Positions 24,622 to 62,630 of a stretch of DNA of 64,000 nt are shown piece after piece; within the stretch, counting starts at the first letter, position 1; every line of letters starts with the position of its first letter. The stretch is from contig CM063113.1 of the NCBI GenBank assembly GCA_031841125.1, forward strand, positions 36,139,697 to 36,203,696, read 5' to 3'. A program made the translations under genes and the position numbers. The notes beneath the pieces were generated by a model. That model worked only from the letters and a program-made list of their open reading frames with translations. It had not been told where the DNA came from and did no database searches. The stretch comes from Acanthococcus lagerstroemiae (lineage: Eukaryota > Arthropoda > Insecta > Hemiptera > Eriococcidae).

Positions 24622-24624
24622 CGT

Positions 24625-25740: not shown

Positions 25741-25746
25741 TATTTA

Positions 25747-27260: not shown

Positions 27261-27300
27261 GAGTCCCTTAATCGGTAAGAGTAGACAGGCATTCGTGCAG

Positions 27301-29140: not shown

Positions 29141-29144
29141 TTTT

Positions 29145-29640: not shown

Positions 29641-29649
29641 CGTCTGCGA

Positions 29650-31240: not shown

Positions 31241-31608
31241 AGTGGCGTCGCTGGATTTTTTTTTTAATTTTTTTTTTTTTGGGGGGGGGGGATAATTTTT
31301 TCCGTATTGTTGACTTACATTTATCGGCGTCGGTGGAGTTTTGGGCGGAATAATTTTTTTAATATAATATTGACTCACGCTCACTGAAATATTTTAAGAG
31401 GAGCAGAATAATTTTCGAAATTCTTTGTACATAGTAATGAAAACTTGATTTGCGTCTTATTTTTGTTGCACTCACTGAGCGGAGCTCGTTTCGAGGCTGT
31501 ATTATAATATTTTTTCCACTTTTTTAATGAGGAAAGCTGGTTCTTTCTCGTCATTTCCCTCTTCTTACATTCGAGTTTGGATCAAACTAAAAGAATTACC
31601 TAGAAAGT

Positions 31609-32618: not shown

Positions 32619-32639
32619 ACAAGCGACATCTTAAGAAAA

Positions 32640-34328: not shown

Positions 34329-34339
34329 CCTATGGTGCA

Positions 34340-34930
34340 CAAACGTGGTCATTAAATGAAAAACTATTAAAACCTTTTAAAAATATGTAGTCTTGGAAAA
34401 AATAGAAATTTATATGTGCTATAGTTAACTATACATATCTTGCTCGCACAATCGACCGGGAAGGCTGGCGTCTTCCTGTAATCCGCGCTAAGGAGGTCTG
34501 ATTGGGCTGCGCTCTCTCCTCAGACGCTGGCGGCAGTTCACCCGTCATTGCGATTCTCGAGTAATTGTTCGGCGCTAGCGCTATCTCGTGAAGTTCGGGC
34601 TACACTGTGTTGTAGACATTGTAGATCGATTTGACTTTGCGAGACTGATCACGGCCGGATTGGTACCAGTGGCACGCCGCGATGAGCGCCGACGTGTCTA
34701 TAAACTGAGTTTACGCGTCTAGGCAGCCGTTGCGAGATCTTGGGGAAACTGCATGGTCGTGTGTCGGACTAGTTGGTTGGTGTTTGTTCGGGGTGCCCAA
34801 TCATTTTGTTTATTTATTTATTTTAATTTACTAGGTGGCGACCTCTGGTCGCATCGCGGCCCAACACCCGCCGTCACTCGCTTCGCTCGTGCCGGCCTGC
34901 AATATTTCGCGAGCTGGAAAAATATAACTA
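34340..34930. other. No recognisable gene; CG-richer block
   Basis: A CG-rich block at about 34,450-34,760 stands out from its surroundings and begins with the CCGGGAAGGCTGGCGTCTTC phrase shared with 25,270. A second CG-rich phrase at about 34,835-34,900 (CACTCGCTTCGCTCGTGCC) follows a poly-TTTA tract. Neither codes for a recognisable protein. Confidence 0.4.
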
Positions 34931-34949
34931 TTATTAAAAATAATAATTT

Positions 34950-35010
34950 CAGCCAGCTGTGGCGTAGCGGTAAGAACTCGGCTTCATAACCCGATTTTCC
35001 CGGGGGGAGA
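34950..35010 (+). repeat. Possible short tRNA-like or SINE remnant
   Basis: The string TGTGGCGTAGCGGTAAGAAC resembles a tRNA A-box region (TGGC..AG.GG). A matching B box is not evident downstream, and no cloverleaf can be drawn. It may instead be part of an unknown repeat. Confidence 0.2.
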
Positions 35011-35451
35011 GTCGAAAATGTCGAAAGACAACCTGCCTGGACTCTGGACCTTTTCGACTTCAACAATGTTGAAAGGAGATAAATGCTATTTACTGATGAA
35101 TACTTCCCTCGTACCTGCTTGCACAATTGAGACTCAAACCATACACAATACCTGCTTTAACAATGACACATCACGTCACCGCTCCGATGTAAACAATGAA
35201 AACGTCACCGCTCCGACGTACTCTGTTGAAAACAACTACCCTCCTAGTGTCCATTTTGGAGTGTGAGTGAACTTGGTTATATTCCTTTTGTAGGGTGTGC
35301 CAACTGCCAATTCACTTTTCCTTCTGCTGTATTCCAGAGCGCTTTCGGCTGTTATGCCATCATCAGTGGAGTACCCTAAATGAGACTTGTCTCTTGTGGT
35401 CCTGTAGTTATAGTCGAGGGTAGTACCGTATGGTGAGCCTGTTTAGTCTTG

Positions 35452-35560
35452 CGTTCCTATTGGTTGTCTGTGAATATGCAGTCTGTCCAATCAGTGGTTA
35501 TTGTTATTGGTTGTGTGCTCTGATTGGTTGTCTGTGGTTGTGCAGTCTGTCCAATCCGTA
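35452..35560 (+). repeat. Tandem duplication with ATTGGTTG and CCAATC motifs
   Basis: The phrase ATTGGTTGTCTGTG then .TGCAGTCTGTCCAATC appears twice, at about 35,459 and 35,523, with a shorter ATTGGTTGTGTGCTC between them. The period is about 64 bp. ATTGG/CCAAT strings are dense, but there is no promoter context to make them regulatory sites. Confidence 0.65.
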
Positions 35561-35898
35561 GGTGTTATGTTATTAGTTGGAATAAGTTCTCACTTTGGAA
35601 GTTAGTTGTTGTATTTATTAGGTTGTTTGGTTTTGTTTTTGCCTTTATTATTTCTAGTTGTTCTTTTAATTTTCTTTTTCTTGTTATTTTCTGTGTGTAG
35701 GATTTGTACTTTCTGTAATTTGTCATTGTGTGCCCTGGTCATGCAGTGTTCAACAGAAAAGTAAATCTACACACAGAAAACAACACAAGAAAAGAATTAA
35801 AGAACAACTAGAATATAAAGGCAAAACAAAACCAAACAACCAATAAATACAACAACAACTTCAAAGTGAGAACTTATTCCAACTAATAACATAACACC
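35561..35898. repeat. Long hairpin, arms of about 150 bp, 37-bp loop
   Basis: The left arm (35,561-35,715), beginning GGTGTTATGTTATTAG, is the near-complete reverse complement of the right arm (35,753-35,898), which ends CTAATAACATAACACC. Mismatches and short gaps are few. The loop holds TCATTGTGTGCCCTGGTCAT. There is no coding content. Transcription in either direction would give a long double-stranded RNA. A small foldback element is one origin; no target duplication was identified. In the degraded copy (about 52,210-52,620) only the left arm is clearly legible. Confidence 0.85.
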
Positions 35899-36112
35899 GT
35901 TCTACTTGCCATTAGGCTGTTCGTACCTGTTAGATACTTCATTGAGCATACTGGTGTAGGCTTTATGCTTTACCTTGAGGAAGTTTTCACTTTCTGAGGA
36001 CATTCTGGTATCTCATGTTGAAAATCCTCAAACCGTCAAACAGTAAACAAGTGCTGCCACAACGATTGTAAACCGGTACCCTACGCATAATAGTGCCAAA
36101 AGAGTACTATAA

Positions 36113-37157
36113 GTTATGTACCAAGTCTCAAAGTGACATTATCGGATGGTACACAGTGACTTTTTGTGTTACCAAATCGCGAAATGCTTTACGGAACCAA
36201 TTTGTTATGTGATATTTCTTTTTTTTTTTTTTTTGTACGTCTGGTTACATACATGTTTTGTCCCAAATCTCGCCGGGATTCTGTTGGTTTCACTTTGTCC
36301 TATTCGCGTAGCGTCCGGACTACGCTGCTACATGGTACAACTGGCTTGTACCAAGTTAGAAATAGGTGCGTTACCACTTACCGATCATTCATGAAATTAC
36401 CTGTATGATTTGGGGTTACTATTCGATCATTCATAAAACTTGACTTGAGATAATAAGAGACAATCTTCACCGATGAATCTATATTCCTGCTCCTTTCAGT
36501 AAGCGTAGTGAGCATTTAAGTATTCATAAAACGAGACTGATCTCTGTTCCTTATGTAACAGAATAAGGAATATGAGGAATGAGGAATAGATATAGCACCA
36601 TGTACCAACAGCTTTGTAAAAATTGACGATGTTTCCGCTGATACGGTAACTGTCCGAGAAGCTAATGCAAAATCATCTGTGACTGACTGGAGGGCAAGGT
36701 TTCCTTAGATGTTCATGCTTGACAAAATGCTTAACAAACAGATGTATATGTAGGAAAAAAATGTTCTATGTAACTCCTGGTGCCATAATGCAATGTCATG
36801 CTGTAATAAATAAGTAATATCTACCACCGCACCGTTGGTATCTGAGAGCTTCAACGCGATTCTTCAATCTAGTCATTTAATTTGAATAAAGTTTAATTTT
36901 AGTGTAGTTGTATTGAGCTTTCAAATCATTATATTTCATGAATGGTCGGTAAAGCATCTATTTCTAACTTGGTACAAGACAGTTGTACCATGTAGCAGCG
37001 TGGTCCGGACGCCACGCGAATGGTACGAAATGAAACGTACATATCGCGAATGGTATGTACCAAGTCCGAATCTTACAAATGGTCCGAGCATTTCGCGATT
37101 GGTACAAAATCACCTGTACCATACCCGAAATGTACAATTTTGGACTTGGTACATAAC
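36113..37157. mobile_element. Inverted-repeat element, 1,045 bp, rich in GTACCA
   Basis: The outer ends are GTTATGTACCAAGTC (36,113) and GACTTGGTACATAAC (37,157), exact reverse complements. Inside, 36,315-36,400 (around CTTGTACCAAGTTAGAAATA) matches the reverse complement of 36,935-37,012 (TATTTCTAACTTGGTACAAG), so the arms extend over about 230-280 bp with gaps. GTACCA or its complement occurs about a dozen times within the arms. The interior is non-coding. It is probably a non-autonomous DNA transposon; flanks do not show a clear target duplication. Confidence 0.75.
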
Positions 37158-37159
37158 AT

Positions 37160-37535
37160 ATATAATAAATTTCGTCTCATGTACCTGACATCATAGACTG
37201 ACTGCCGTTCGGTTACAAGAAATGAAGAAACCAAGGAATAGTTTGGAACCCTGAAGAAGAAGAAAATTTGAGTTTTCTTATCATTTGTTGTTTAAGGAAT
37301 ATAAGTGTTATTATTGATAATACTCTTGTTTTATTTCAGCAACGACCTTTATATTTTCCACTGCGCTTATTGGTCTGAGTTCGTGACTTAGTCCAGCCTT
37401 ATCTCTGTGAGATACTTAAGTCAATTGGTTGGAATAAAATTACCGCCCACTAAGCGGTCGTATCGTACTCTGCTGATTCGATATCTAAATTTTATTCCAC
37501 ATGAACTATTCTTGACCAAAAGATTTCAATGACGA
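37160..37535. other. Unassigned sequence up to the copy junction
   Basis: Ordinary AT-rich DNA with no gene. It is the last clean sequence in the window: from about 37,540 base composition and run lengths change abruptly. The matching part of the degraded copy is about 54,215-54,500. Confidence 0.5.
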
Positions 37536-37689
37536 ACACGATGGGTTTATGGGGGGAAAAGGGGGAAAAGGAAAAAGGGGCCCTTTTTTCCCCCTGTTGG
37601 TTTTTTGTGGGGGGCCTTTCCCAAAATTTTAAAAATTTTCGGAGGGGAACCCCTCTGGGAACGAAAATAAAATTCGGTTCCCCTTCTTC

Positions 37690-38095
37690 CTGGGGTTTTG
37701 TTCAAAATAAAAAAAACGCGTTACTTTGTTCCGTTTTGGGGCCGGTAACCCCTTCGCAATTCGAGTTAAACATCTCTGATGTAGTTCTTTCCCTTTTCCC
37801 TTCCTTTTCCTTTTGCGTTTTTTTTTCAAAAAAATAAAACAAACGCGTTCACTTTGTTCCTTTTTTTAGATGTGCTCCTTTTGTAAAACGCATTCCCCCG
37901 TTCGCGAAGGGGAATTTTTGACATCTCTGACTGTAGTCTTTCCCTTTTCCCCGGGTCTCGGGTTTTTTTGTTCCAAAATAAAAACAAACGCCCCCCTCCC
38001 CCTTCTTTTTTCATGTGAAAAGAACCCGGTTTTTTTTGTTCTTGTTTGTGGAGGTGCTCCCGTTCTTGAACACTTTCCCCTTTGAAATGAAAACA
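37690..38095 (+). repeat. Degraded copy of the MITE-derived tandem repeat
   Basis: The ACATCTCTGA terminus appears at about 37,769 and 37,919, and the ACGCGTT(C)ACTTTGTTC phrase at about 37,718 and 37,842, with a third related unit at about 38,000-38,060. The clean copy at 21,972-22,265 shows two units. Extra unit(s) here would mean a different allele or repeat count, unless the consensus is wrong. Confidence 0.55.
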
Positions 38096-38469
38096 AATGG
38101 GAGCGCGGCTGGGACTCAACCCGGGGGACCCCCCTTTCCCCTTTTTCGTTTATTTCTGTTTTTTTCCCTTTTTCCCCGCTTGTTAAAGGTGCCGAGTCTA
38201 AAGTTTGTCCATTTTTTGGGCCCCTTATGTGAATCTACATTGCCCTGTTTTTGACTTTTGGTTTTTAAAAATTTTATTTCTTTTCTTTTGCGAAGGGTGG
38301 TAGTCGGGGAGCATCAATTCATTTTTTTTGGGGGGGTTTTTTTTAACCCGACGGTTTCAAGTACCAAAAGGTGAAAATTTAAAAAACGATTTTTTTTTTA
38401 CCTGGTACGATTTTCCCCGGGGGGAGTGGGCACAAAAATCGTTTTTGCCACGGGTTTTAACCCACCCAC

Positions 38470-38620
38470 TTTTTAAAGGCCAAAACCCCCTGTCTCCAAC
38501 CCCCCCCCCACCCGGTTCATGCTATCCTTTCCCCAAAGGTTTCCCAAAATTTTTCCCCCAAAACTTCCCCCTCCATCTGGTGGGGAGGTTCCCCACCCCT
38601 TTTTTGCCCAAAAGGGATAC
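38470..38620 (-). pseudogene. Degraded copy of the RTE C-terminal fragment
   Basis: It corresponds to 22,582-22,768: TTCATGCTATCCTTTCCCCA and CCCTCCATCTGGTGGGGAGG align with CATGGCTATCCTTTGCCA and CCCTCCATCTGGTAGGAGG. The frame is destroyed by homopolymer changes. Confidence 0.65.
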
Positions 38621-41600
38621 AAACCCTTTTTTCCCCTTTTTTTCATTTATTTTTTGTTGTTTCTTAGCCAATTACTGGGTTTTTAACGATTTTAAATTTT
38701 TCTTTAAAAAACCCATCCTATGCTACAAGCGCAGCATTTTTTTCCTGATGGGTTTGAGTTTTAACCATGTTTTTCCCGTGTTACTTCTAGTGCCCTACGC
38801 AGCGTTCTTTGTTTTTGGACCCCCCTTTTATTAACCTTGGTTTTGGTCAAAACCCAAAATTTTGCGTAAGTCAACGACGCTCAGTGAATTGCCAAAAAAA
38901 CCCCTGGTTTTTAGGGAAAAACATTTTTTTTGTTTTTGATTATATGGTTTGTCCCGCCAAAAATTTCCCCAAGTCCCAGAATCCGACTCTTAGTTGTTTG
39001 TAATGCCGGTTTTCGAAAAAGAAAAATTTTTGGCCAATTTTTTTGTATTCTAACCCCAATTTTTCCCTTTCCCCCCATGCTATAGTTTGAGCATAAAAAA
39101 CTGATATTTATTTATTATCTAATGGAGAAATTTTTTTACTTTTTTTTAAAAGTACCACAAAATATACAGTGCATTATTTTTTAATTTTAAGCCCCAAATA
39201 GGGGTTTTTTAAAAAGGAAGCTACAGCTTCAAAAATTTTCGGGATTATTTTTTGGAAAAACGTATTTAAACGGGTTTTGCAGGCCCCCTTTTAAAAGGGG
39301 CCGCTGTAGTTTTATATGTGTCTTTTTTTCTTTTTTTTCGTAATTTTTTCCCGGCTTTAAAACCAAACGGGGGGGGCCTTTTAAAAGAAGACTTCATTGC
39401 ATGTGAAATTTAAATTCAAATATTTTTTCCCATTTTTTCTGTTTCCATCAGCGTCAACCCCCCTTTTTTAATGAACCCAGGCACTTCAAAAAACGGGGGA
39501 TTGAAATTCATATTACCCAAATTTAAAACATGATAAATTTTTTTTAAATAAAATTTGGGTTAAAATAAAATTTTACAAAGGTAAAATTTTTAATTTTTTT
39601 TGAATTCGTTACGTCCGATGTACCCCCGGGGGTTTAAAAAAGGTACCGAAATTTGTTTAAATCGTAGTTGATAATCTAAAAAAAACCCGGGGGTCGCGTA
39701 TTTTTTCCCTTTGGTTGTATTTTTAAAATTTTTTTGTGGGAAAGATTTTTTTTCTTACTCTCCCGTCTAAAAGTGTCTTTTAAATTGTGATGAAGCTATG
39801 AAGTTAAAAAATTTAGCCTTTTTTTAAAGTTTTTATGAATTAAAATGGAGTACATCGGGGGGCCATGTACCCTGAAGATTGGAAAAAAGGGTCCCCCCAA
39901 AAAACGGGAAAACTTTGCCCCCCGGAAACATTGTAGGGCCAATCGAATGGAAGGTTGAATACCCAAGTCCGTCCCCGTGCCCCCTTTTTTCCGGATAGAA
40001 CAGGACAGCCATTTTGTAGGAAGAGCAGCCTAGGGGAAAAAAATTACATTTAACGTCCCCCTTTTCCCCCCCCAAACGAGGCCCGTCCCTTCTGGGAAAA
40101 AGGCTCTCATTTTGGGGGAAAGTAGAGTATTTATTACAATTTCTTTCAAAACCCTGGCCCCAATTGGGGAAACCTTACAATCCTTTTGATACTTCCCTTT
40201 GGGTTTACTCCGAAATACTTTCGAAAATACTCGCGAGTTGGGAAATTTGCTCGACCCAGTTTCCCGGGTCAAAAAAATATAGGGGCAGGTAAATAAGGGG
40301 GTTTTTTCTAAATCCAAAAAATTTTCCTTCCGTAAAAATGCCCCTAGGGGGGTGTCCCTATGTCGAGAAAAATTTGGTTTGTTTAAATTTTCTTTATTAT
40401 CGGACGAACAGAACGAATATCAAAAAAAAAACATTGGATGGGTTTTTTTTAAATTTTTAAAATTCAGGGTTGGACATTGGGTGGGTTAAAAAATTTAAAT
40501 TTAAATTTTTCCCCAAATTTCCCCCTTTCCGACCAGGAAGAAAACCAAAGAGTTCTACAAGGGTGGCAGTGCAACTTAGGGGGTTTTTTATAACGAAACT
40601 GTGGGGAAAAGGAAAAAAGGACCATAGAAAGGGGGGTTTTGGGTGTTATAGACTCTCCATGTTTCTTGATAAGTCGGCAGCGGCACTAAACAAATTTTTG
40701 GGACCAGCCGGAAAAAATTGGGAAGACCCGAACTTTTTTTTTTTGGGTTTCCCCAACAAAAAAATTTTTTTGAAATTTTAATCCATTTTTGCTACCCCCT
40801 CATGGGAAATTTGATTGCTCGGCCCCTACCGGGACTTTTTCCTTTTTTTTAGTCACGAACGGCCCCAATTTACAAAATCGCTTTAAACGGAGGGTCTTTT
40901 TTCCCGGGGTATGTAGAAGGGATTTAAAAAAAAAAAAGAAAAACGAAACCTGTTGGTGGTTTTTGTGTTTTTAAAGATCTTTTCGAATTTTTTTTTTCCC
41001 CCTCTCAAAGAATCCCCCAGCAAAGGGTAAAAACAAAGGGGAAATTTTTTCTTTTCCAAGATGCAATAATTGAAAAAAGGGTTTTTGATAAAATAGCCCC
41101 TCATTTAGTTTTTGTGACCCTTTCTTTAACCCCTTTCCCCCAACTGCGCCACCACATTTTGTTTTTTTTTCCCTTTCCCAAATTTGTTCAGTAAAAACCA
41201 TTCCCCAAAAAATTTTCGGGGTTTTTAAGGTAGCTTTTTCAAAAATTATTTTTCGGTACGAATCTAGATTTGCTGCCCCGGAAAGGGGTTGGGGCGTCCC
41301 CCCGACAGTTTTTCCGGTGAAATTCTCAAAAAAGTACCACCATCGCAAAAAAAAAAAGTGCCACAAAATTTTTTTTTCCCATGGGGATAGGGACAGATGA
41401 AAATCACATAAAGATCACTGTTCGGAAAAAAAAAGGGTTAGATAATCTTTCAAATGTTTTTTTTTTAAAGAAAAATTTGGGAGTTGTTGAATTTTTTAAA
41501 AATCTTCAAAGCCCAAAAAAAGTACGAATATGGGAAAAAAAAATGGAAAAATTCCGAAAAAATTTTTGGAAAATTTTGGCTCTAAAAAAAACGAAAATAT

Positions 41601-41768
41601 CCCAAAAACATGTTTTAATACCCAAAATTAATTGCTCGTTTAAAATTGGCCCTCATTTTTTAAAATTTATGAACCCACAAAAATTTTAAACATGGATTTT
41701 TCCCAAACCCTACTCTTACTTCAACAGAAAAAAAAAAAATGAAAAAAGATTTTTTGGAATCTCTTTTT

Positions 41769-41843
41769 AAGGTTTATCTGTAAAAGGGGGCCCCCTAATG
41801 AATGGGATTTATTCGTCAGGGGCCCTTTTGACAGTTTAATCCT
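41769..41843. repeat. Degraded copy of the 75-bp palindrome
   Basis: The right half (TCGTCAGGGGCCCTTTTGAC) is intact, while the left half (TTTATCTGTAAAAGGGGGCC) has lost and gained bases relative to 25,747-25,784. Confidence 0.75.
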
Positions 41844-42589
41844 CATTTTTTAAAACAAAATTATTCAAACGACACTTTGGTCGGCGTTTCCAAAACGCAT
41901 GATCCCAACTACGCACACAGGGACTTTACGGAAGGTTTTTCCCGGGGGGGAAGGGGGGGGGGGGGGGAAAAAGGGGAAAAATTTAAAAAGCCCCTCAACG
42001 GTTTCCCAACTAAAATTTTTCCAAGTATCGAAAAGAAAAAAAAAAAGAGAAAAAAAAAATATGAAGAAAAAACCCTTTGGACATTTTAATTTTTTCCAAC
42101 TTCCAATATGATGTAGCCGTAAGCTTTAAACCTTCAGGCCTTTTAAGAAATCAGGCCCGAAAGCCCGGGGCCCCGGGGTTCCCCCCTCTCGTGGGGGTTT
42201 CCCCGCACATTTGAAATAAAGCGCCCGGAATTTGAACTGTGACTCAGATCATACTGGAAAAAAAAAATGGAAGAAAAAAAAAGCGATTACAATGCCGGTT
42301 ACTAGTGGGCCAAACCCAAAAAAAATATTCCCCCAAAAAAACCCCTATCGAAATGGGCATTATGTTTTTTTTTTCCAAAAAACTTTTTTTAAAACCCCAA
42401 ATAAATATATTTTTTGCGAACAAAAAAGGGACCAGTTGACCAAAAAAAAATTTTTTGCGGAAAAAAGGGGTTTTAAAAAAAATTTGGGAAAATTTTTTTT
42501 CTTTTTTATTCCCGTTCTTTTTACTTACCAACATTTCAGGGGTAAAAGGTCTTTAACAACTACCAAAAACGCCCCCCCAATCCCCGGCC

Positions 42590-43350
42590 CCGTTCTTTTT
42601 TTTAAAAATTTTCCCAATTTTTTTCCCAAAGAATTTAAATATTTGGGATGATCCCCCAAGAATTCCCATCAAAAAAAATTTTGGGAAAAATCTCCAATGT
42701 TTTAAGGAATTTCATGGGGAATTTTTTGGGAAAAAATTTCGATATTTTTCCCGGAGATTTTTTTTTTCCTAAATCTTTAGAAAATATTTTTAATGTTTTC
42801 CAAAGAATTTCATTAAAAATTTTTTGGGGAAAAATTTTCCCGAAAATTTTTTTTTAAGGAATTCCTGGGTTTAAATTTTCGAAAAAAAATTTCCAATTTT
42901 TTTCCAAAGAATTTCTTTAAAAATCTTGGGGTTTAAATTTTTTCGAAAAAATTTTTAAAAGGGTAATTTTTGGGGGGGAAAACCTCATGGTTTTTGAAAA
43001 ATCTTATCAGAAATCTTCGGGAAAATGTTCCCCGGGAAAAAACTTAATCGACGATTTGGGGAAAAATCTCCGATTGTTTATAAAAAATTTTCCCTCGGAA
43101 AATTTTTGTAAAAAAAATTCCCGGGAAAATTTCCGAAAAAATCCTATGGGGGAAATCTTTAAAAAAAATTTAACAAATTTTTTCCAAGGAATCTAACGAA
43201 TTCCCTTTGAAAAAATTTTGCAAAGAAAATTTTTGAAAAATTTTTCATGGGAAAATAGGGGGGGGAAAAATTTCCCCTTGAGTTTGAAGAATTTTATGAA
43301 AAACCCGCCCCCAATAATGTTTCGATGTTTTTCCAAAGTTTTTCATCGAA
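42590..43350 (+). repeat. Degraded copy of the second satellite block
   Basis: Phrases such as GTTTTCCAAAGAATTTCATT and AAATCTTTAGAAAATATTTT still align with 26,520-27,260, with many expanded runs. The hairpin at 27,301-27,386 corresponds to about 43,405-43,490, where only the right arm region (CAGCAGGTACGTGGGCAACT) is legible. Confidence 0.7.
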
Positions 43351-45344
43351 AATCTTCGAATTGAGCCCCCTTAACCCGGTTAAGAGTAACAGGCTTTCGT
43401 GCAGAAAGAAAATTTTTGCCTAAAATTAAAGATTGATTTTTTTAGGGAGAAATGCGAGACTCCCCTCAGCAGGTACGTGGGCAACTTACCTGACAAGGAT
43501 AAATGTATTCGCCTCCCTTTGAAATTTAAAAGGGAAAGAAAAAAAAATTATGCCCCCGTATCAGGGGAAAATTTTTTCCCGAAAATTTTTAATTTTACAT
43601 AAAACATTTTTATTTCCTTTTTGTACTTTTTGAAATAATAAATTTTGACTTCCCTCTTTTTATAACTGCAATACTCGCAAATTTTTTCAAGATAGGGGTT
43701 TGGGGAAATTGGGTTTTTATAAAATTTTTCTAAAGGGGTTTTTACAAAAAATTTTAAACCCAAAAAAAGTAAAAATCAAAAAAATTGGGTCAACGGGTTT
43801 TCTTTTGTATGCGCCCCACTTATTCATTATGAAGCCCTGCAGTGACCTAGGGCTCTTTTGCTACTTTGGGGGTTTCCTTTTTCAATCTGCCCCTTTTCTT
43901 TTTTAATTTGCCCCCTCCCAACAGTATCCCTTTGAAAAACATCACTTCAAATACTTTTTTTTTTAAAACTGGAGTATTAAAAAAAAAGAAAATTTTAAAG
44001 CATCGAGAATAGCCCATTGCATTTCCAAATAATCAAAACACAGCGCCCGCGTAAAAAATTTTTTCCCTATATTTTAAAAATTCAAATTTTTTAGGGGGAA
44101 AAATCATAATGATTTATTTCGATGGGGAAATTTTAAAAGGGGAATATTTTATGTACTAATTTTTTTCCCGAAAAAATATATATTTTGTGGGGTAATTAAA
44201 AAAAAATTTCTGTGGCGAAAACTTTTTCAAGCTATAGCACGCGTGCACTTGAAGTATGGAGTGAACTTTGAGTACGAGCATTTTTAAAAAGGGCCCCCCC
44301 TTTTCACTACAGAACCCCCAAAAAGCCCTTCTTAAAAATTTAAGTCCAAAAGAAAAACTCCCCCCCGGGGTTTGGACGGGCTTTGTACCTTTTAAAATTC
44401 CTAAATTTAACGCTGTTTGTGGATTTTTTTTTTTTTTTTTGAACTGAATAAAGGAAATTTGCAGAAAGGTGACTTCCAAAACATGTGCGTTAATAGGCAT
44501 GTTATGTAGGTTAAATTCCCCAAACCAAAATGCGCTCCAATTAAAAAAATTAAAAGGAAAAAGAACTTAATGCCCTTTGAAATTTAAAATTTTCAATTTT
44601 TAAATCCCAAGATTTTCCCCCCCGATACCCCGAACCCAAATAAATTGAAAACCTTTCAATTTTGTGTTCAAATGAAAATGATAAAAAGACTTCAGTTTAA
44701 ATGGGGGGTTCTGTCATTAACGGTCAAAAAATTGGGGGAAAAAGCCGGGGCCAACATGTAAAAAAACTACGGGATCGCTTTTTGAAAAATTTAAAACAAG
44801 AAAGATAAAAAAAAAGGGGGGTTTTTAAAAATTTTTTTTGGGGAAAATTTAAAAAAGAAATGGGAATTTTTAATTTAGTTTCTTGCCTCAAACCTTTCAA
44901 TTAAAAATTTTTTAAAAAACCAAACCTTGGGGCTAAACTGGGGGGCCCGATGTGTTCGAAGTATTTAGATCCCCCGTTCCCCCCCCTAAAAAATTTGTAA
45001 TTTTTTAAAAAATTAAGGAAAGGAAAAATTAAAATTTTTTTTTTCGGGGCCCGATCCCAACATTTTAATTAAATGAAATTAAAATCTCTACCCATCGACC
45101 CTTTTTTAAAAAAATTTATCTTGGGCAGCCTTTCCCAAGCAAGGGCCCAACCAAGGAGGGGGTGGCCCCCAAAACCCAAAATTCTTTAAATTTTCTCAAA
45201 TTCAATTTGAAACAAAAAAAAATTGATGCCAATAACCGATGTGGTTACTTTTCGGTCGGTTTCGTACTTCCCAGCATTTTAAAAATAGGTAGGTACCAAA
45301 TCGAGGTTTCACTCCTGTTCAAATTATTTTTTTTCCCTTTTTTA

Positions 45345-45790
45345 AATATTTTCAGGTTTTTTGCTTTGGCAATAAAGGGAAGGGAAAAACGTTATTTTTT
45401 GGGGGGGTTTCCTTTGGAGCATCATAAAAAAAAAAGCGATCAAAGTTTTTTTTGGGCACAAAAACAAAAAAAAGGGGTTTCCTTTTTGAGCGTTACTTCT
45501 GAAGCGAAAATAAAAATTTAAAGGGTTTTCTTAATTTTTGACATTTCCCAGCTCAGTGGTTAAACATTTCCTTTGGAAATTTATTTTTCTTCCGCCATGG
45601 GTATACGGAAAAAGAACCCCCCCGTTCCGACCCCCCCGAAGCCGTCAGGATATTTGCGTTATGGTGAAGTTCAGTTCAGTATTGACATTTCCATGGAAAT
45701 TTCTATTAACAACATGGCTGCAGCTGCAGTCGCACAGAAACCAACACCAAAAACGGTGCGACTTTATTCACGTCGATTTTAAAAAACGAG
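45345..45790 (+). repeat. Degraded copy of dispersed repeat family A
   Basis: GGAAATTTATTTTTCTTCCG and CATTTCCATGGAAATTTCTA align with 29,370 and 29,505. The 147-residue frame at 45,538-45,981 runs through this block and is spurious. Confidence 0.7.
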
Positions 45791-47399
45791 ACAATGAAAA
45801 TGCTCCCCCCGTGGTTGCAAAACCGTCTCCCAATTTTTTTTATGTTGCTAGTGTTTTTAAATCATTTTTGGGTTCGACTTTGTGGTTTTTGGTCTTTTGG
45901 TCAGTTTTGGCAAAATTTAGAAGGTTTTCTTTGCGAAGTTTTCTATTGTGTTCCTTTAATTTCGGGTTTACCTTCCTTTAAATTTTTTTTGTATTTTTTC
46001 AGTCCCCCCCCCCCCCAAAATTATATGGTTATGGGGGTTGTGGGCTCCCATTTGATCGGGTCTCTTTTTTACAGATTCAAATTTCGCCCTTTTTTTTAAA
46101 ATTATTTCGACAAATTTTTTAAAAGGGGGTTTGAACAAAACTTTTAAAGTGAAGATGAGGTATTTTTTTCCCCGTTTTCATTCTCCCCCTTTAAAAGGGG
46201 CCCCTCCCCGAAAGGTTTTTTTTTAAATTTTTTGAAATTTCAGATTTTTTGTTCTTCAGGGAGCGCAGAATTCTGTTCTTTTAAGAGGAAAAACAAAGTT
46301 TAAAATTTCGACCACGGAGACTGTTTTTTAAAAATAATTTCGTATAAAAAAAGGGAAAACGGGGGGAAAAAATTTTTTTTTGCCCTTTCCAGCCAAGTGT
46401 CTTTTTTTTTTCCCTAATATAAAAGGGCCTAAAAATAATTTTCCTTTCAAAATTTTGAAAAGGAGTAAATTGTTTTTTTCGCCCCCTTTCCCCTTTCCTC
46501 TCCCTTTCTATGTTTTTTTATTTGTTTGGGGTTTTTAATGGTAAAATCGATTCAAAAACCAATTTTTTTGTTTTGTGGTGGAAAGGGATTCTCTTTTTTT
46601 TCTTTTAATTGGGAAATTTAAAAACTCCCCGTTTTTTAACTTCGGACTAGGGGGCCCATATTCTCCAAAAACCCGGAGAATATTAAAGTTGTATTTTTTT
46701 TTTAGTTTTTTTTTCCCCCCCCCCCCCCTCCTCACCACCCAAAAATATTTATTTAGTTTGTAGTAAAGAATTTTGGGCAATTTTAGCAAAGCTTTCAAAA
46801 TTTTGAAGAAGGGAGAAAATTTTTTTCAAAAAAGTTTTGGTTTTTTGGCCGCGCTGTAAAGGGAAAAGTGTTTCTTGCCCCCTTTTTTCAGCTATGTGGA
46901 AAACAGGGAAAAAACCCGGAATATCTAATGAATAAAATGGGCCCGAAGGGGGAGTTAGTGGGGAAAAAATTTCCCAAATTACTTCCCCCTTGGGTTTTTT
47001 AAAATATTTTTTTAACAAAAATTTTGAAAGTTCCTCGAATTTTGCATCTCCATTTTAATAACCGGCACGAAAAAATTTTTTCCATTAACTCTGTAATCGA
47101 AGGTTCCCAAAATTCAAAAAATTTAAAAATTTTTAAAAATTGGGAAAAAAACTTCAAAATTTTAATTTGGCCCCTGCCTTTAAAAACAACAAAAACCTTT
47201 TTTTTTTTTTCCCCTCGGGGGTTAAAAATGCTGGACTTTTTTTTTGTTTTTCCCATTTTGGAGGGGTTATTTTGGGAACTTTTTTTTGGAAATTTTTTTT
47301 CTTTTTGGATTTTGGTTTTTTAATTTTTTCAAAAAACTCCGCCCCCGAAAAAGGTTTTAAATTTTTTTTAATTTTTGGGTCCAAAGGTTTAAATTTTTT

Positions 47400-47488
47400 T
47401 TTTTTTTTATTGGGGGGGGGGGGGGGGGGGGGGGGGGGTAAAAATTTGGGGGGGGGGGGGGGGGAATTTTAATTTTTTTTTTTTTTTA

Positions 47489-47524
<36 letters not shown>

Positions 47525-47812
47525 CTTCTTTATCGGGGGGGGGGGGGTTCCTTCGGGGGGGGGTAAAAACCTAAACTGGGGGGGGGGGGTTTGGGGGGGG
47601 GGGTTTCTATTAAAAATAAAGGGGGGGGGGGCCTTTTAATTGGGGGGGGGGGAAACCCTGGGGGGGGGGGGGGGGACGGGGGGGGAAGGGGGGGGGGGGG
47701 GGGAAAAAATTGGGGGGGGGGCCTAGGGGGGGGGGGGTTTGGGGGGGGTGGGGGGGGGGGGGGGTCGGGGGGGGGGGGAAATTTTTTTTTTTTGGGGGGG
47801 GGAAAAATTTTT
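47400..47812 (+). other. Poly-G tract replacing ordinary sequence
   Basis: About 400 bases dominated by G runs stand where the clean copy (about 31,050-31,290) has ordinary mixed sequence ending in one 11-bp G run. Traces of the original survive between the runs: TTCTTTATCG for CTATCTATCG, TTTCTATTAAAAATAAA for TTTCTATTCCAAAAACTAAA, and AAACCCTGG for GAAACCATGG. The tract is therefore a mis-read of known sequence and not a G-quadruplex locus. The glycine-rich frame at 47,591-47,827 is meaningless. Confidence 0.85.
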
Positions 47813-48089
47813 TTCCCGTATTGTTGACTTACATTTGGGCCCGTCGGTGGATTTTTGGGCGGAAAAAATTTTTTTAAATAAAATTTTTGGACTCACGCTC
47901 ACTTAAAATTTTTTTTTTAAAGGGAGAAAATTTTTCGAAATTTTTTGTACAAAGTAATGAAATTGTTTGAGTCTTTTTTTTGTTGCACCACTGAGCGGAG
48001 CCGTTTTTCGGGGGTGTATTATAATTTTTTTTTCCCCCAATGAGGAAAGCGGTTTTTTTCCTCGTCATTTCCCCCATTTCTTACATTGG

Positions 48090-50960
48090 TTTTGGTTTCC
48101 AAAAACTAAAAAAATTTAACCTAAAAATTTTGGGGTAACAAAGGAAAATCCGCCCCCCCAAAAAAACCCCAATCTGTTCACAATCAAAAATTTTAAAATT
48201 AAAAAAACCCCCCCCTTAAAAAATGAAAAGTAAATAAATTTAAATTTAAAATTTTGAAACAAATTTCCCCAAAAATTTAAAAACAAAGGGAAAAACTCTC
48301 ATGTCATACCCCTATCTTGAAAATTTGGAAAGTAAAAAAAAAAAAGCAAAAACCCCTACCCTATCGGGCCCCAATAATAAAAAAAAAAGGGATCTGTCGA
48401 AGCCACCTTAAATGAAAGAACATTGAAACCCCAAAAAAATTCGGGTTAGAATTTAAGAAAAAAGCGTAGAAAATACAATCTTTTTGCATTCTGGTTTACC
48501 CGGGGTTTGTGGGAAACGGGAAAATAATATTCAAATAACTAAATAAAAACTTATTTTTCAACATGGGGAAAGGGTGGACGGGCCGGGGTTGGTTTCCCTT
48601 GGGTAAAGTCACACATGAAAAAAAAATATTTGGGAAAAAAAAGGGCCCATACAGATAAAATAGCTAAAATTACAGAAAAAATAGGAAATAAAAAAATTTT
48701 AAACCCAACCTTCAAATATATCCCCCAGCTAAAAATCAAAAAAAATTTAAAATTTACAAATTTCTATAAAAAGGGCTATCGGTTTAAATTTCAAAACGGA
48801 AAAGGAAACAAAAAAACAAAATTTATTTAAAATGGGAGAACTTCAACACCAAGTAGGGAGGGGAAAAAAAGGGAATATCAAAATAGGAAAGTAAAATTTT
48901 TCATGGAAAAGAAACAAAATGGTTTGGGAAAATTAACGAGATTTTGCGGATCTAAAAACCTTAAAAAATTCAATTACTTTTTTTCCAAAAAAAAAAAAAA
49001 AAAAGGGAAAAAAAAGGGATGGCCCTTGGATAGCCCCCAAATGGGTCCCAAGACCCAAATTAAATTATTTTTAAACCCCAAAAAAACTACAATAACACCC
49101 GGAAAATATCATTTTTAGGAAAAAGATTAAATATAACACAGACCAAAAGGAAAAATTATATGTAAAAATTATGAAAAAGCCCATCTTAAAAAAATTTGAG
49201 GAAATGGGGAAAAAACGAAAAATTTGGGACTCAGTATAAAAAAAATTACAGATAAATTTAAAAAATGATGGGAAAAAAAAACAGTTATTAGAAAAATATA
49301 GAAAAAATGGGGAATTCTAAAATTTAAAAAATACATAAACAGAAGTGACAAAACCCCCAAAAAAAAATTTAAAAAAATACCCCCCCAAAAAAAAATTCCC
49401 TAAAAAATTTCAAAGGGTTTTAATTTAAAACAACGAGAAGAAAAAAAAAAAAAAAAAAAAGGAAAAGGGTTTAAAGAAAAAATAAAAATTTGAGTTTAAA
49501 ATTAAAAAAACCCCCTTAAAAAAATAAAATTAAGGAAATAAAAAACAAAAATAAAAAAAAACAACATAAGAGAAATTTTGGAGCAAAAAGAAGTAAAAAA
49601 AAATATTAAGAAAAATTACCCCTTGGAATAAAAGGATGACGAAATTTAAAAGACCGGGGAATAAAGGGGTTAAAGGGCCGAAATAAACAAAAAATTTGTA
49701 CAAAATACTAAAAATGGAACTATACAAAGACCCAGAAAAACAACAAAATATAAAAAATAGAAAAATAATACAAAAACCCCTATTTTTTGGAAACGGAATA
49801 AGACATAAAAGTTAAAGATTTAAAAAATAAAAAACCCCCCTGGTGATATGAAATAAAAAAGGAAAACATATTAAAAATGGGGGAAAAAAAACCTTTTAAA
49901 AAATCATTGCCCCAATTTTTTATACTATTTTGAAAGGGACAAAAAATCCCCACACTTGGAAAATTTCGGAAAAAAATTTGATTTTAAAAAAAGGGGGAAA
50001 AAAGGTTTAAAACATCGAAAATTACGCTCAAAATTCAAAGGGCCAAACACTGTCAAAAATTTTCTCCAGCCTTATGGAAAAAAAAAATAAAAAAAAACCC
50101 AAACAAACCATAACCAAGGAAACGGGGGGGTTTCCCGGAAAGGGAATATTCAACGATAGATCATTTGCATCCCATAACCAGGGGATTAAAAAAAATGTCA
50201 GAAAAACCAAATAATATTGTTTGGGCCCTTGTGGATTAAAAAAAAGCTTTCGATTGATAAAACACAAATCAATATTTTCAAACTTTCAATCAACCCGGGA
50301 AAACCCCAAAACCCCAATTTTTTAACATAATCATGGTATGTCCCAAAAATCAAAAGCAGAGTGATAACAGATGTAAGGGAAGATATTTTAAATTTTAAAA
50401 AAAAAAGGGCCCTGAAACAGGGGGGTTTCCTTTCGCCAATATTATTTATAGTGTTCGGGAAAGGGACGTAATCAAAAATTTTAAATTGGGATGAAAGGGG
50501 GATATCAATAAATGGAGAAAATTTTAAAATAATTGGGGGTTTTCGGGGATGATCTGTAAAAATAGCAGAAAAAAAACGGGTTTTTAAAAAAAAATGCTAA
50601 AAAAAATTAAAGGGTTTTAAAAAAATCAATAAAAAAAAAAAAATCTTGACCAACAATTCGGAAAAAACCAAAAAAAATGAAAACGAAGGGTTATCTCGGC
50701 CCTAAAAAACTTCAAAAAAAAGGGGAAAATAAAGGTGAACAGAAGATCTTTATTGAAGGGGGAAAATATTGGGGGTAATTTGAAAATATTTTTAAGGTCT
50801 TATAAAAACAAACAAAAAGTGAAATATTTAATGCTTCTTACCCCAACAGCCCCCCCCGACGTCTCGGGAGAAAATGTAGAAAGGGGGGAAACCCCGGACT
50901 CGGGTGGGAGAAAAAATTGGGAAAAAAAGATCCCTCCATAGCCTATGGGGGCACAAACGT
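48090..50960 (+). pseudogene. Degraded copy of the RTE-type LINE
   Basis: It aligns with 31,590-34,345. AACGAGATTTTGCGGATCTA (48,937) corresponds to 32,381, and ATTCAACGATAGATCATTTG (50,149) to 33,557. The endonuclease and reverse transcriptase frames are broken throughout by run-length changes and cannot be read as protein. It adds no information beyond the clean copy. Confidence 0.85.
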
Positions 50961-52049
50961 GGTCTTTTAAATGAAAAACTAAAAAAAACCCTTTTTAAAA
51001 ATATGTATTTTGGGAAAAAAATAAAATTTTTTAAATGTGTAAAATTTAAATAAAAACTTGCTCCCCAAAATCGCCCGGGGAAGGCTGGCGTTTCCCCAAA
51101 AACCCCGGGGCTAAGGAAGGTCTGATTGGCTCCCGCTCTCCCCTAAACCTGGCGGCGTTCCCCCCGTCATTCGATTTTTGAGAAATTTGTTGGGGCGCTA
51201 GGGGTATCTCGTAAAGTTCGGGGTACATTGTGTTTAGACATTGAGAGATTTGGGACTTTGCGAGACTGATCAGGGCCCGGGATTGGCCCAAAGTGGCACG
51301 CCGCGATGAGCCCCAAGTGTCTTTCCCGGGAGTTTGGGTTAGGCAGGGGGCGAGATTTTTGGGGAAAAACTGCATGGTGTGTGTCGGATATTTTGGTTGG
51401 TGTTTGTTGGGGGGTCCCCAATCATTTTTTTTATTTTTTATTTTTTTTTTAAAATTTTATAGGTGGCGCCCTTGGGTCGCATCGCGGCCCAACACCCCCC
51501 GGGTCACTCGTTCGTCGTCCCGGGCCTGAATATTTCGGAGTGGAAAAATATAATTTATTAAAAAAAATAATTTCACCCAGCTGTGGGGGTAGGGGGTAAG
51601 AACTGGGTTTCCTAACCCTTTTCCCGGGGGAGAGCGAAAATGTTCAAAGAAAAACCCCTGCCGGGACCCCCTGGCCCTTTTTCGATTTTTAAACAATTTT
51701 GGGAAAAGGAAAAAAAAGCTTTTTAAACTGATGAAACTTCCCTCTATGCTTGACAATTGGGACTAAAACCCAAACACAATCCCTGCTTTAACAATGACAC
51801 ATCACGTAAAACCCGCTCCATGTAAAAAAATAAAAAACGTCACCGCTCCGCGTACTCTTTTTGAAAAAAAACTACCCCCCTGTTTTCCCTTTTTGGGAGT
51901 GTGAGTGAACGGGGTTAAAATTTCCCTTTTTTTGTAGGGTGTGCCAATTCCAATTTTTTTTTTCTGCTGTACCCCCGGAGGCTTTCGGCTGTTAGGCCTT
52001 CATCTTGGGAGTCCCCAAATGAGACTTGTTTTGTGGTCCTGTATTATAG

Positions 52050-52625
52050 TGGGGGTAGTCCCGGGTATGGTAAACCTTTTTTGTCTTGCTTTCCAAATTG
52101 GTTGTCTGTAAATATGCAGTCTGCCCAAATCAGTTTTTATTGTTTTTGGGTTGTGTGCTCTGATTGGTTTTGGGTTGTCCCAGTCTGTCCAAACCCGTGG
52201 GTTTTGTTATTTTTGGGAATAATTTTCCACTTTGGAAGTTAGTTGTTGTATTTATTGGTTTTTTTGGGGTTTGTTTTTCCCTTTTAAAATTTCTAGTTTT
52301 TCTTTTAATTTTTTTTTTCTTGGGTTTTTTTGTGTGTAGGATTTTGTATTTTTCCTTTTTCATTTTGGGGGTAAAAATTGGGTAACCCTGGAAAACAAAA
52401 AAAAAAAAGAAAAAAGTTTGTTTTTTCCAAAAGAAAATTAAAAAATCCAAAACACACAAGGAAAACAAACCAAAAACAAGAAAAAAAAATTAAAAGAAAC
52501 CAAACCTGGGAAAAAAAAAATAAAGGCCCAAAAAAACAAAAAAACCCCAAAAACAAAACCTTTAATAAAAAATTAACAAAAAAAAAACCTAAAACTTCCA
52601 AATTTTGAAAAAAATTTTTTTTCCA
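52050..52625. repeat. Degraded copy of the ATTGGTTG duplication and long hairpin
   Basis: TTTGGAAGTTAGTTGTTGTA (about 52,233) matches 35,594. The right arm, clean at 35,753-35,898, is here reduced to A/C-rich runs at about 52,425-52,620 in which the order of phrases can still be followed. Confidence 0.7.
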
Positions 52626-52899
52626 AAACCCTTTAATTTTTAACCCTTTTTTTAACCACCTTTTTTTTTTTTTTCCTTACTTGTCCAAAATTTTGGCTTT
52701 CCTTCCCCCCCCCCTGTGTAGAAAAACTTTTTTTACCATTGAGAATTAAGAAAACGGTTAGGCTTTATCGTTTACCTTAAAGGAAGTTTTCATTTTCCCT
52801 GGGACATATTGGTATCTCATGTTGAAATCCTAAAACCGTAAAACAGAAAACTTTTCTGTCCAAACCCCTTTTGTACCTTATTTCCACGCCCCGTTTCCA

Positions 52900-54100
52900 A
52901 AGAGTATTATTTTTTAATCCCCCAAACCCCAAAAGTGTCCCTTTGGGGGAAGGTAAGGGGGATTTTTGTACCAATCGGGGAAATTTGCTGGAAACCATTT
53001 GTGTGATTTGAAATTGGGTACAACATTTTTTTTTCCATTCGCGATCGTGTGTTTCATTTTTGCCCTATTCGCGTGCGCCCCCGGGGACTCCCGCTCCCAA
53101 ACAGGGGTAAACCTGGTTGTCCAAATTTAAAAATAGGTGCGTTCCCCACTACCGATCATTCATAAAATTTACCTGTTGTTTGGGTTATTTTCCAAATATT
53201 CAAAAATTTTGAATAATAAGAAAAATTTCACCGATAAAATCTTTTTCCCTGCCCCCTTTCAGTAAGCGTATTTGGTTTTTAAAGTTTTCTTTAAAACAGC
53301 CCTGATCTCTTTTCCTTTTATGTAACAGAATAAGGAATAGGGGAAATGGGGAAATTTGAAATAGCACCTTTTAAACCAACATTTTGTAAAAATTGAGGGA
53401 TTTTTCCGCTAAACGGAAAACTGCCAGAAGTAATGCAAAATATCTGTGACGGACGGGGAGGGAAAGGGTTTCCCTTTAAATTTTTATGTTTGACAAAATG
53501 CTTAACAAACAGATGTGTATGTGGGAAAAAAACAAAAAAGTTTTTTAATTGAAAAACCCCCCTTTACTTTAACCTTCCAACCTTTTTTTAAAATTTTTTT
53601 GGGGCCCCCGGGGGGGCCCCCAAAAGCCCCGGGGGGGCCAGAAAGGGGCAAATAAAACAATTGCGGGGTAAAATAAATTTTAAAAGGTAATTAAATTTCT
53701 TAACCACCCCCAAACCGGTTTGGGTTTTTTCAAATTTTCCCCGCTTAAAAAAACCCCCAAAAATTTTCCTTAAAAAAATTATTTTTTCAAAAATTTTAAT
53801 TTAAAATTTTTTAAAGTTTAAATTTTTATTTATTTTTGTTTTTTTTGTTATTTGGAGCTTTCCAAAACCCCCCAAAATTTTTTTATTTTAAAAAATTTTT
53901 AAAAATTTTTGGCCCCCTTTTTAAACCCCCAAAATCAAAAATTTTTTCAAACTTGGTAAAAAAAAGAAACATTTATTGTCCCAGGGGGGTTGGGCAGCGG
54001 GGGGGGTTCCGGACGCCACGGGCGGAATGGTTTTTTTAAAAAAAGAAATGAAATTTTTACTTCCAATTTTTAAAACCCAGTTCCGAATCTTCCCAAAGGT
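52900..54100. repeat. Degraded copy of the GTACCA-rich inverted-repeat element
   Basis: Recognisable phrases include TAAAAATAGGTGCGTTCCCC (about 53,129, matching 36,359) and CCGGACGCCACG (about 54,010, matching 37,006). The right arm is poorly preserved. Confidence 0.7.
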
Positions 54101-54499
54101 TTCAACAGCTTTACAAAACCACCTTCCAAAACCCGCAAATTTTTTTTTTTTTAGGTTGGAATTAAAAATTTTAAAAAATTTTTGCCATTTTCCCTTTCTT
54201 TCATAACGGGGTTTGGTTTTTCGGGGGGGGGAAAAAAAATTTTTGGAATGGGGAAAAAAATTTGAGTTTTTTATTTTTGTTTTTTAAGGGAATATAAGGG
54301 GTTAATTTTTTTGTAATTTTTTTTATTTTCGGCAAAAATTTTCAAACAGCCTTATTTTAAAAGGGAAAACCAAAATTTTAGATTTAAAGAAATTTTTTTT
54401 TAAAATTCCCGGGGCCCAAAAGGGGTGTATTTTATTTTGGGGGTTATTTTAAAATTTTTTCCAAAAAACTTTCCAAAACCACAAATTTCTGACAAAACG

Positions 54500-55671
54500 C
54501 AGCCGCACCGTTTTAAAAAAAATTTTTAAAAATTTTTTACGCAAAAAAATTTTTGAAACCAATTTTTGCTTATTTTTCAATTTCTTCCCCCAAAAAAAAT
54601 TTTTTTAGTGGGGAATGGGGGAGGTCGCCCAAAAAATTGTATACTCACCAATTTTTCCCTTTGTTAAAAATTTTGGTTGGGGGAAACCCCCAAATTAAAA
54701 AGCAAAACGGGGAAATTTTCACAGTAAAAACAAAATTTCCCCACATTTTAACCAAAAAAAAAACTTTTTTAAAATTGGGAAAGGGCTCCCCCCTTTTTGG
54801 GCTGGGCGGGAAAATTCTTTTTTTTTTTTGGGGTTACCCAGGGGGAATTTTTTCTGTTGACCTTTACCTAAAGGAAATTTTTTGGGGGGGGGGGGTTTTT
54901 TTAAACAATATAAAGGCCAAAATTTTTGTAATTTTACGGGTTGGGGTTTTGGGAACGAAAATTAAATGGGGGAAAAAAAAATTGTTTTTTTTTAAAATTG
55001 GCCAAACCCTGCCAATTTTTTTTTCAAGAAAATTTTCCCATGGGGTGGGGGTATTTTTTAAAAGATTTTCACAAAACGGTAAAAAGGCCCCCGATAGTTT
55101 TTTTGAATTTTTTGGAATTTTTTCCCCTTTTATTATTTTAAACAATTTTTTTTCCCAAAAAAAATTAATTTTTTTATTGTTGGAAGATTAAACCCAAAAA
55201 AAAATTGAAAATTTGACCATTAAACCTAAAAGGAAACAAAAATCCCTCCCCCAAAATTGGGTTAAAAACCGAAAAAAACATAGGCCGCCCTTGAAGGGGT
55301 CATTGGAAAAATCTTTTCAAGTTTAACCTTTCATTTTCATTTGCCCCCCACCCTAAACCCCCTTTTTAATTACCCAATTTCGGGCCCAGGCCAAATTATA
55401 GGAATTAGTTTGGGCGTTTTTTTAGGGTTTATGGGAAAAAGGTTTTTTTCGTTGGTGCCGTTTTTTAATCAAGTTTTAAAAGGGGGGGGGTTATTTTTTT
55501 TTTAAAACGAAACGGGGGCCCCGGAATTTTTTTTTTTAAACAAAAATTTTTTTAAATTTTTGAGTAAAAAAAAATTAATTTAAAAAAAACAAAAAAAAAA
55601 ACCCCAAAAAAAAAAAAAAAAAAAAAAAAAAAAACAAAAAAAAAAAATTTTTTAAAAAAAAAAAAAAAAGG

Positions 55672-55724
<53 letters not shown>

Positions 55725-55735
55725 AAAAACACAAA
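54500..55735 (+). other. Degraded tail beyond the copied region, with poly-A block
   Basis: After about 54,500 the alignment to 37,535 ends, so this is new but unreliable sequence. Positions about 55,600-55,724 are nearly pure A. The 212-residue plus-strand frame at 54,553-55,191 is rich in Phe, Lys and Gly, as expected from runs of T, A and G, and I do not regard it as a gene. Confidence 0.7.
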
Positions 55736-55739
55736 AAGG

Positions 55740-57300
55740 GGGAAAAAACATGAAATCACTTCATGAAAGTTGGAGAGCCAAGACCAAAAAATTTAGGGCC
55801 TTTTTTGGGGTCCCTCCCTTAAATTACGCCCCAAAAATTTCACGTCTCAAAAGGGACTCACAAAGCATGTCATACATGCAAAGATCTTGTAAGCTAAATT
55901 ATTTAAATTTTTAATCGTCATTATGGGCGCAATTTTTACGCACAAAAAATGGGCGAAAAAATGCGCAAAATTTTTATGCCTAAAATTCATTTAAAAAAAA
56001 TAAAACCCAAATTAAATTGCCGAAAAAAAAATTTGCCCCAAAATGGTAAAATTTTCCCGTAAATTTGAAAAATACAATATGGGAAAGGGGGAAAACTATA
56101 TCTTTTTCAAAAAAAAAAATTAATTGGATACACTGAGGAAATTTTTTATCATATTTAAAATAAACCAAACAAAGTATCTCCTTAAGACCCAAATTTTTCT
56201 TTTAAAAAGGAAAGCACCCGGGAGATACTGAACCTTTTTTCTTAATTTTTTATGTTTGGGATAAATAAGATGCGGGCAAGAAAAAGGGTTATTTTAAAGT
56301 CAAAAAAACCCATTTTTTTTCCTTAAAAGTTTTTCCTATGTTTTCTTTTGCCCATTAAGTCTTCAAAAAAATAAAATTGTCCCCCCCCCCGCAAAAAAAG
56401 GGGTATCTAGACGAAAAGCATTTTTAGTTTCTAGGGGGGGGGGGGGGGAAGGTCATTTTATTTTCCGTTTTCGTTTTGGGTTAGTTTACTCAGGGGTATG
56501 TGTTTTGGGATTTAAAATGTATGGCACGGTACTATTAATTTCGGTATCACAGGGACTCTAATTCTTTTTTACAAATTTTTTATACCTGCAATACCTATAA
56601 ATAAATTAAATTGGCCTTTAAATTTTGTGGGGGGGGGGTTTAATTTTTTGATCATTTCTCCCCGCTAAATTTTCGGGGGGTTTAAAAAAAATTACCCTTT
56701 AAACCCCCCCCCCTCCCTCAGCGACGCCCAGAAACCCCTTTTCAGCAAGGTTTCCCGAGAAGGTGTTTTCGGTTGCCGTATTTTAAAAGGGGAAAGGGGT
56801 AAGGCCAAACCGCCGGTGTCTTGAACTCCCCGCATACACCACGGGCAAGTGATACAGAAAATTCGATGGAAGAAAAGGGCCAAGTCGCCCTAGGCCGATT
56901 CCCCAAGAAAAAAGTGGGTAAGGCAGCCAAAAAAAAAGCTTCCCGATGTCCCTGAGGTAATGTCGAAGGGGGCGGTTCCAGGGGGGGGTTTGAGAGCAAA
57001 TGAAAAGGGGGAGAAAGGTTCCCGGGCCCCCCCCGCAAAAGAGGGTACCCTTTCCCAATGCACGGCTCAAAAGGGGCAATTTCCAGTTTTTGACGTCGTT
57101 TTTAAAAAGGTCCAAAGTTTGCTGGGTTGATTTTTTAAATTTTTGCACCCAAATTGACATGGTTTTTCCTTTTAATAGATGTATGCGTAGGTGTTTCGGG
57201 CAAAGGCTGTTTATGAGGGGGGTTTCATTTGGTTGTAAAAGAGCGTTTGGGTGGGCGTTTTTTCTTTTACCCAATATGCCCTGGGAAAAGGGGAAAGGGG
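55740..57300. other. Partly legible sequence, no gene recognised
   Basis: Mixed-base sequence with fewer long runs returns here. Phrases such as TGGAGAGCCAAGACC and CATGTCATACATGCAAAGATC are plausible genomic DNA. At about 56,716 CAGCGACGCCCAG resembles a CAGTGGCGTCGCTG-type hAT-like terminus in inverse. A 163-residue minus-strand frame (56,783-57,274) has more ordinary composition than its neighbours, but I recognise nothing in it. Confidence 0.45.
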
Positions 57301-57791
57301 AAAAAAAAAAGGGCCGGTTTTTAAAAAATTTTTTAAAAAAAAGGGTTTTTCGATTTTTTTTTTTTTTTTCCCCCGGGAAAAGGAAATTTTAAATTTTTTT
57401 TAAAAAAACCCCAAAAACCCCAAAAAAAATTTTTTTTAAAAAAAAAAAAAATTTTGTTTTTTTTTTAAAAAAAATTTTTTTGGGGGAAAAAAAAAAAAAA
57501 AAAAATTTTAAAAAAAGGGGGAAGTTTTAAAAAAAAAAAAAAAATTAGGGAAAATTTTGGGGAAAAAAAAAATTTTAAAAAAAATCCTGGTTTTAAAAAA
57601 AAAAAAATTTAAAAAAAGGGGGGTTTAAAAAAAAAATTTTAAAAACCCCTTTTAAAAAGGGGGAAAAAAAGGGGGGTATTTTTTTCCCAAAAAAGGGGGG
57701 GTTTTTTTTTGGGGGGAAAAAAAAGGCCGGCCCCCCAAAAACAAACCTTAAAAATTTTTTTAAAAAGGGGGGGGGGGTTTTTGGGGGGGGG

Positions 57792-57822
<31 letters not shown>

Positions 57823-57838
57823 TTTTTTCCCCCCCCAA

Positions 57839-57870
<32 letters not shown>

Positions 57871-60485: not shown

Positions 60486-60516
<31 letters not shown>

Positions 60517-62596: not shown

Positions 62597-62630
<34 letters not shown>

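Follow-up and report, generated by a model that had tools for sequence, protein, structure and literature searches.

The window analysed here is a 64,000-nucleotide stretch of the Acanthococcus lagerstroemiae assembly, read on the plus strand and corresponding to C8:36,139,697-36,203,696. The assembly comprises 658,055,089 bases in 438 contigs, with C1 to C9 ranging from 59.8 to 83.8 Mb in length. Based on run lengths and on self-alignment, the locus can be divided into a clean part, which ends at about 37,546, and a corrupted block of 35.5 kb, which continues past the end of the window up to about 73,080 (window coordinates). This block length includes 7.5 kb reading N, the readable part being about 28 kb. 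The following features were delimited:

22,065-37,545, plus strand: clean copy of the duplicated segment, defined by self-blast and displaying a normal run-length profile
37,536-37,556, no strand: join between clean and corrupted sequence, without N, placed by reading of the sequence and by alignment
37,546-37,886, plus strand: start of the corrupted block, where alignments leave 37,546-37,699 without placement and identify about 37,700-37,845 as an extra repeat unit of about 156 bp
37,887-54,515, plus strand: corrupted second copy of 22,065-37,545, with moderate corruption and a mean run mostly of about 2.0-2.3
54,516-57,299, plus strand: corrupted sequence past the end of the clean copy, in which 55,740-56,740 matches dispersed genomic repeats (71-80%), the clean flanks giving no match
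57,300-64,000, plus strand: heavily corrupted part, with a mean run of 5.5, which extends beyond the window to about 73,080

Comparison of the window with itself by blastn revealed three same-strand matches, pairing 22,065-30,960 with 37,887-47,245 (80.0% identity), 31,270-35,712 with 47,782-52,352 (79.7%), and 35,957-36,761 with 52,759-53,532 (71.5%). Exact 20-mers shared between 20,001-37,545 and 37,546-64,000 formed 509 same-strand and 6 opposite-strand pairs, as compared with a single shared 20-mer for the control region 1-20,000. Once merged, 77 of the 84 anchors were found to be collinear, with an offset passing from 15,827 to 16,771 that was non-decreasing in 65 of 76 steps. Both analyses bear out the sequence-only reading, which had described a collinear copy on the same strand with an offset growing from 15,831 to 16,771. 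The 15.5-kb copy that it had placed at 38,101-54,500, opposite 22,270-37,535, is real, but its bounds had to be revisited: homology begins at 22,065 and 37,887, and the corruption does not stop at 54,500 but persists, becoming far worse from 57.3 kb and running past the window end.

The two copies are collinear and adjacent, and the drop in quality falls on the edge of the duplication at about 37,546, a position that, judging from this drop, may be a contig boundary. The final 105 clean bases (37,440-37,545) match 54,360-54,580 with a better score than at any of 300 positions drawn at random from the block; taken alone, the segment 37,345-37,445 has no distinctive match there, its score being equalled or exceeded by 35 of 300 null scores. 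The copy spans the clean end and then continues past it. At the opposite extremity, the block start carries at least one more unit of about 156 bp than the clean copy, whose units sit at 22.0-22.3 kb, and this 156-bp period was absent from the Tandem Repeats Finder output.

Mean run length, calculated in 1-kb steps, was 1.31-1.68 in clean DNA from -20 kb up to the join. Within the block, it reached 1.84-2.62 over nearly all of 38-57 kb, with a value of 3.06 in the kilobase from 47,001, and then rose to 3.68 in the 1-kb step starting at 57,001, before reaching 4.81-5.81 between 58 kb and the window end. In the heavy part from 57.3 kb, the mean run of 5.5 compares with about 1.5 in clean DNA, and single-base runs account for 8%, as compared with about 70% in clean DNA. 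A stretch of 7,500 N, which may represent a gap, starts exactly at the window end and occupies 64,001-71,500 (C8:36,203,697-36,211,196). From about 73,080 the sequence is clean again, throughout the 91 kb examined. Elsewhere in the assembly, 13 of fifteen 2-kb samples were readable and all of these were clean (mean run 1.36-1.57), the other two reading N.

At the base level, alignment over the clean segment 22,100-30,900 gave 1,750 substitutions, 557 inserted bases, and 106 lost bases in 8,801. Isolated differences were counted in 810 columns with eight matches on each side, taken from two aligned blocks. These 84 differences comprised 43 substitutions that copy a neighbour, a single other substitution, 32 single-base losses, 4 losses from runs, and 4 neighbour-copying insertions. 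The adjacent base was thus copied in 43 of the 44 isolated substitutions (23 of 23 in the first block alone), against 39% by chance. Runs are made of each of the four bases, and between destroyed segments the copy retains exact stretches as long as 49 bases. Three bad patches were longer than their clean counterparts (1.73, 1.66, and 2.00 fold), indicating that the worst sequence was over-called, and not merely smoothed. When a toy process replaced the letter at 30-50% of positions by that of a neighbour, the mean run was 2.10-2.40, with 2.09 observed and 1.39 under uniform error. The same process yields too few single-base runs (0.37-0.47 versus 0.55 observed), suggesting that the damage is patchier than in the toy, in agreement with inspection of the alignment by eye. 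Overall, the fault looks like over-calling, with single bases lost or overwritten by their neighbour and surviving bases repeated in the worst patches. The conversion into one-base runs that the sequence-only reading had proposed for the second copy is real, as seen in the alignment, the substitution counts, and the run lengths. No description of neighbour-copy corruption was found in the literature titles or abstracts listed, and one could still be in print.

Beyond the copy, a search of the whole assembly with 55,740-57,250 identified at least 41 places besides the query itself (40 of 2,344 candidates scored). The matches listed are dispersed repeats aligning with query positions 3-1000 at 71-80% identity, a range similar to the identity of the corrupted copy to its clean original. 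Query positions 1001-1511 had none among the matches listed, with 40 of 2,344 candidates scored, which is not evidence of absence. Since 55,740-56,740 carries dispersed repeats of this genome, the block represents its own DNA rather than a contaminant; the search did not locate the true continuation of the block. Segments 54.5-57.25, 57.3-64.0, and 71.5-73.08 kb were also scanned on either strand against the clean flanks, from -20 to 37.5 kb and from 73.1 to 164 kb. By raw alignment, none of the six top-ranking places listed for each query lay in clean sequence with a score exceeding the reversed-sequence null. In the homopolymer-compressed scan, 54.5-57.25 kb had scattered best places (z 2.5-3.2) and no clean-flank match, while the heavy pieces had z values of 2.7-4.0, four of five lying slightly above the null maximum but at unrelated places. 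As controls, four of five known pieces were recovered at the expected place (z 10.4-42.6), medium-quality controls being recovered easily (z 42.6); the fifth (53,995-54,500) scored higher at another place than at the expected one, and both scores exceeded the null maximum. The missing flank match of the heavy part proves little.

Taken together, the second copy is probably technical, a false duplication derived from an unmerged overlap and not a second piece of chromosome. The good contig would end at about 37,545, and a very low-quality long-read piece (a single read, a gap-fill segment, or a contig of very few reads) would cover the last 15.5 kb of this contig and extend beyond its end. Its high error rate would have kept the overlap from being recognised, so that the poor piece was set behind the good contig without merging and the same locus was written twice. 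The two copies would then represent a single locus, and the corrupted one would come from a read or a gap filler. The coincidence of the edges and the overrun of the clean end are both predicted if the end of a good contig overlaps, without being merged, with a poor read, a gap-fill segment, or a thin contig. Several observations argue against a technical copy. These include the extra repeat unit and the unplaced 37,546-37,699 at the block start, as a read from the same haplotype should lack this unit unless the clean copy collapsed there, together with the unremarkable score of 37,345-37,445, the misfit of the toy process, the lack of a published description of such corruption among the literature listed, and the absence of N at the join.

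The sequence-only reading had left three options side by side, a technical copy, a second haplotype, and a real tandem duplication with nothing but poor data over it. Coinciding edges, the overrun of the clean end, and errors of a sequencing type favour the technical copy, and the real duplication did not stand up well. In that last scenario, a true 15.5-kb tandem duplication would have its second copy covered by poor data alone; the assembly does show the sequence so, but a genuine duplication gives no reason for the quality edge to fall on the duplication edge, which makes it highly improbable. The second haplotype is more probable than that, although still unlikely. Here, the other parental copy, covered by few poor reads, would have been left beside the first, resulting in a heterotype false duplication with a bad consensus, which is still an assembly error. 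The number of units of about 156 bp, which differs at the block start, would fit such a haplotype, or a collapsed repeat in the clean copy. Judged from the lone non-neighbour substitution, the copies diverge by about 0.2% and by no more than roughly 1% (4.74/(810 x 0.61)), and a divergence of up to about 1% is compatible with that single substitution in 810 columns. Yet there are no clear haplotype SNPs, non-neighbour substitutions representing 1 of 44, as compared with 61% of random SNPs.

The runs themselves might be real DNA generated by a mutational process, for which nothing speaks beyond the assembly itself. All four bases are affected, nearly all isolated substitutions copy a neighbour, and intact stretches alternate with destroyed ones; we know of no mutational process that produces such runs, and this origin is scarcely conceivable. 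It is also very doubtful that 54.5-73 kb is a locus whose DNA defeats the sequencer, such as a long satellite or strongly structured DNA, with reads degrading into one-base runs as they enter it. If so, the false duplication would mark a real, hard-to-sequence feature of the chromosome. A missed-adapter (palindromic) origin was ruled out, as the copy lies on the same strand.

The corrupted block most likely belongs to a known class of assembly artefacts, and its base-level signature is unusually clear. The Vertebrate Genomes Project reports describe homotype false duplications, which lie at the boundaries of contigs and frequently have the length of about one read; they are attributed to overlaps left at graph branches or to sequencing errors, and consensus quality, read depth, and k-mer copy number separate them from heterotype duplications (PMC8081667; PMC9516828). 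The locus resembles these homotype cases in having tandem copies of unequal consensus quality at a putative contig edge (PMC8081667; PMC9516828). Inequality of the copies is evident from the run-length profile and the error counts, and the collinear adjacent copies meet at the putative contig boundary; the duplicated length is 15.5 kb, within a block of 35.5 kb. In contrast to the scaffolded duplicates covered in one of these reports, which have a gap between them (PMC8081667), the copies meet here without any N, and corruption of the second one goes far beyond that of an ordinary consensus. As in heterotype duplications, described in both reports, two copies stand next to each other in a single assembly, but heterotype duplications are defined by haplotype-specific variants at half coverage, none of which is clear here (PMC8081667; PMC9516828). 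Copy-specific variation consists of one non-neighbour substitution in 810 columns and the differing number of repeat units at the start. According to the TGS-GapCloser report, this tool puts in long-read segments without N, raw insertions have to be corrected, and overlaps can occur between neighbouring pieces (PMC7476103). Gap filling with uncorrected long reads, as outlined there, resembles the present case in its insertion without N (PMC7476103), and by this analogy the join would fit long-read gap filling.

For the clean endonuclease-like frame at 31,591-32,481, the matches in the copy have 34-39% identity and fall in three different frames. In all three clean frames tested, the matches are split across shifting frames, with identities of 32-60% of which the higher ones cover very short pieces. 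An earlier warning that annotation of this locus would be doubled thus holds for DNA and repeats; for genes, the three clean frames tested are broken in the copy and would give fragments, not intact second genes. Stop-free frames of at least 60 aa occur at 6.1 per kb in the copy and 8.7 per kb in 54.5-64 kb, versus 4.3-4.7 per kb in clean DNA. These dense frames should not be taken for genes, one-base runs being dominant there. Users of this assembly should mask the readable 28 kb or so (35.5 kb with N) at C8:36.177-36.213 Mb, where repeat and duplication counts are false. A raised mean run length combined with neighbour-copying substitutions is suggested as a check for such blocks that does not require reads. 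Beyond the users of this assembly, interest in the locus is low.

The clean part of the window contains several transposons and repeats. Retrotransposon pieces occur at 13,053-15,738 (minus strand), 31,591-33,193 (plus strand), and 11,036-11,443 (plus strand). In a Pfam search with seven clean frames, RNase H passed its cut-off, and the reverse transcriptase and endonuclease domains fell short of theirs. Among 14 proteins, the named matches were from Cyamophila willieti (43% and 41%) and Photinus pyralis (41%), and one transposon protein in the clean part has its nearest named relatives in insects. Rfam returned no match at the gathering score. A dispersed element about 1 kb long occupies 36,108-37,164, and copies of a part of it occur with 96-98% identity at no fewer than 39 other places (40 of 144 candidates scored). 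Most of the copies scored have an inverted partner of about 250 bp located about 100 bp away, and on sequence features the element looks like a foldback or MITE-type transposon. An inverted repeat of about 340 bp (5,762-6,104 and 7,346-7,681), 87% identical, perhaps corresponds to transposon ends. Two clusters of related internal repeats, at 19,930-21,317 and 26,568-27,255, are 66-79% identical and comprise both direct and inverted copies.
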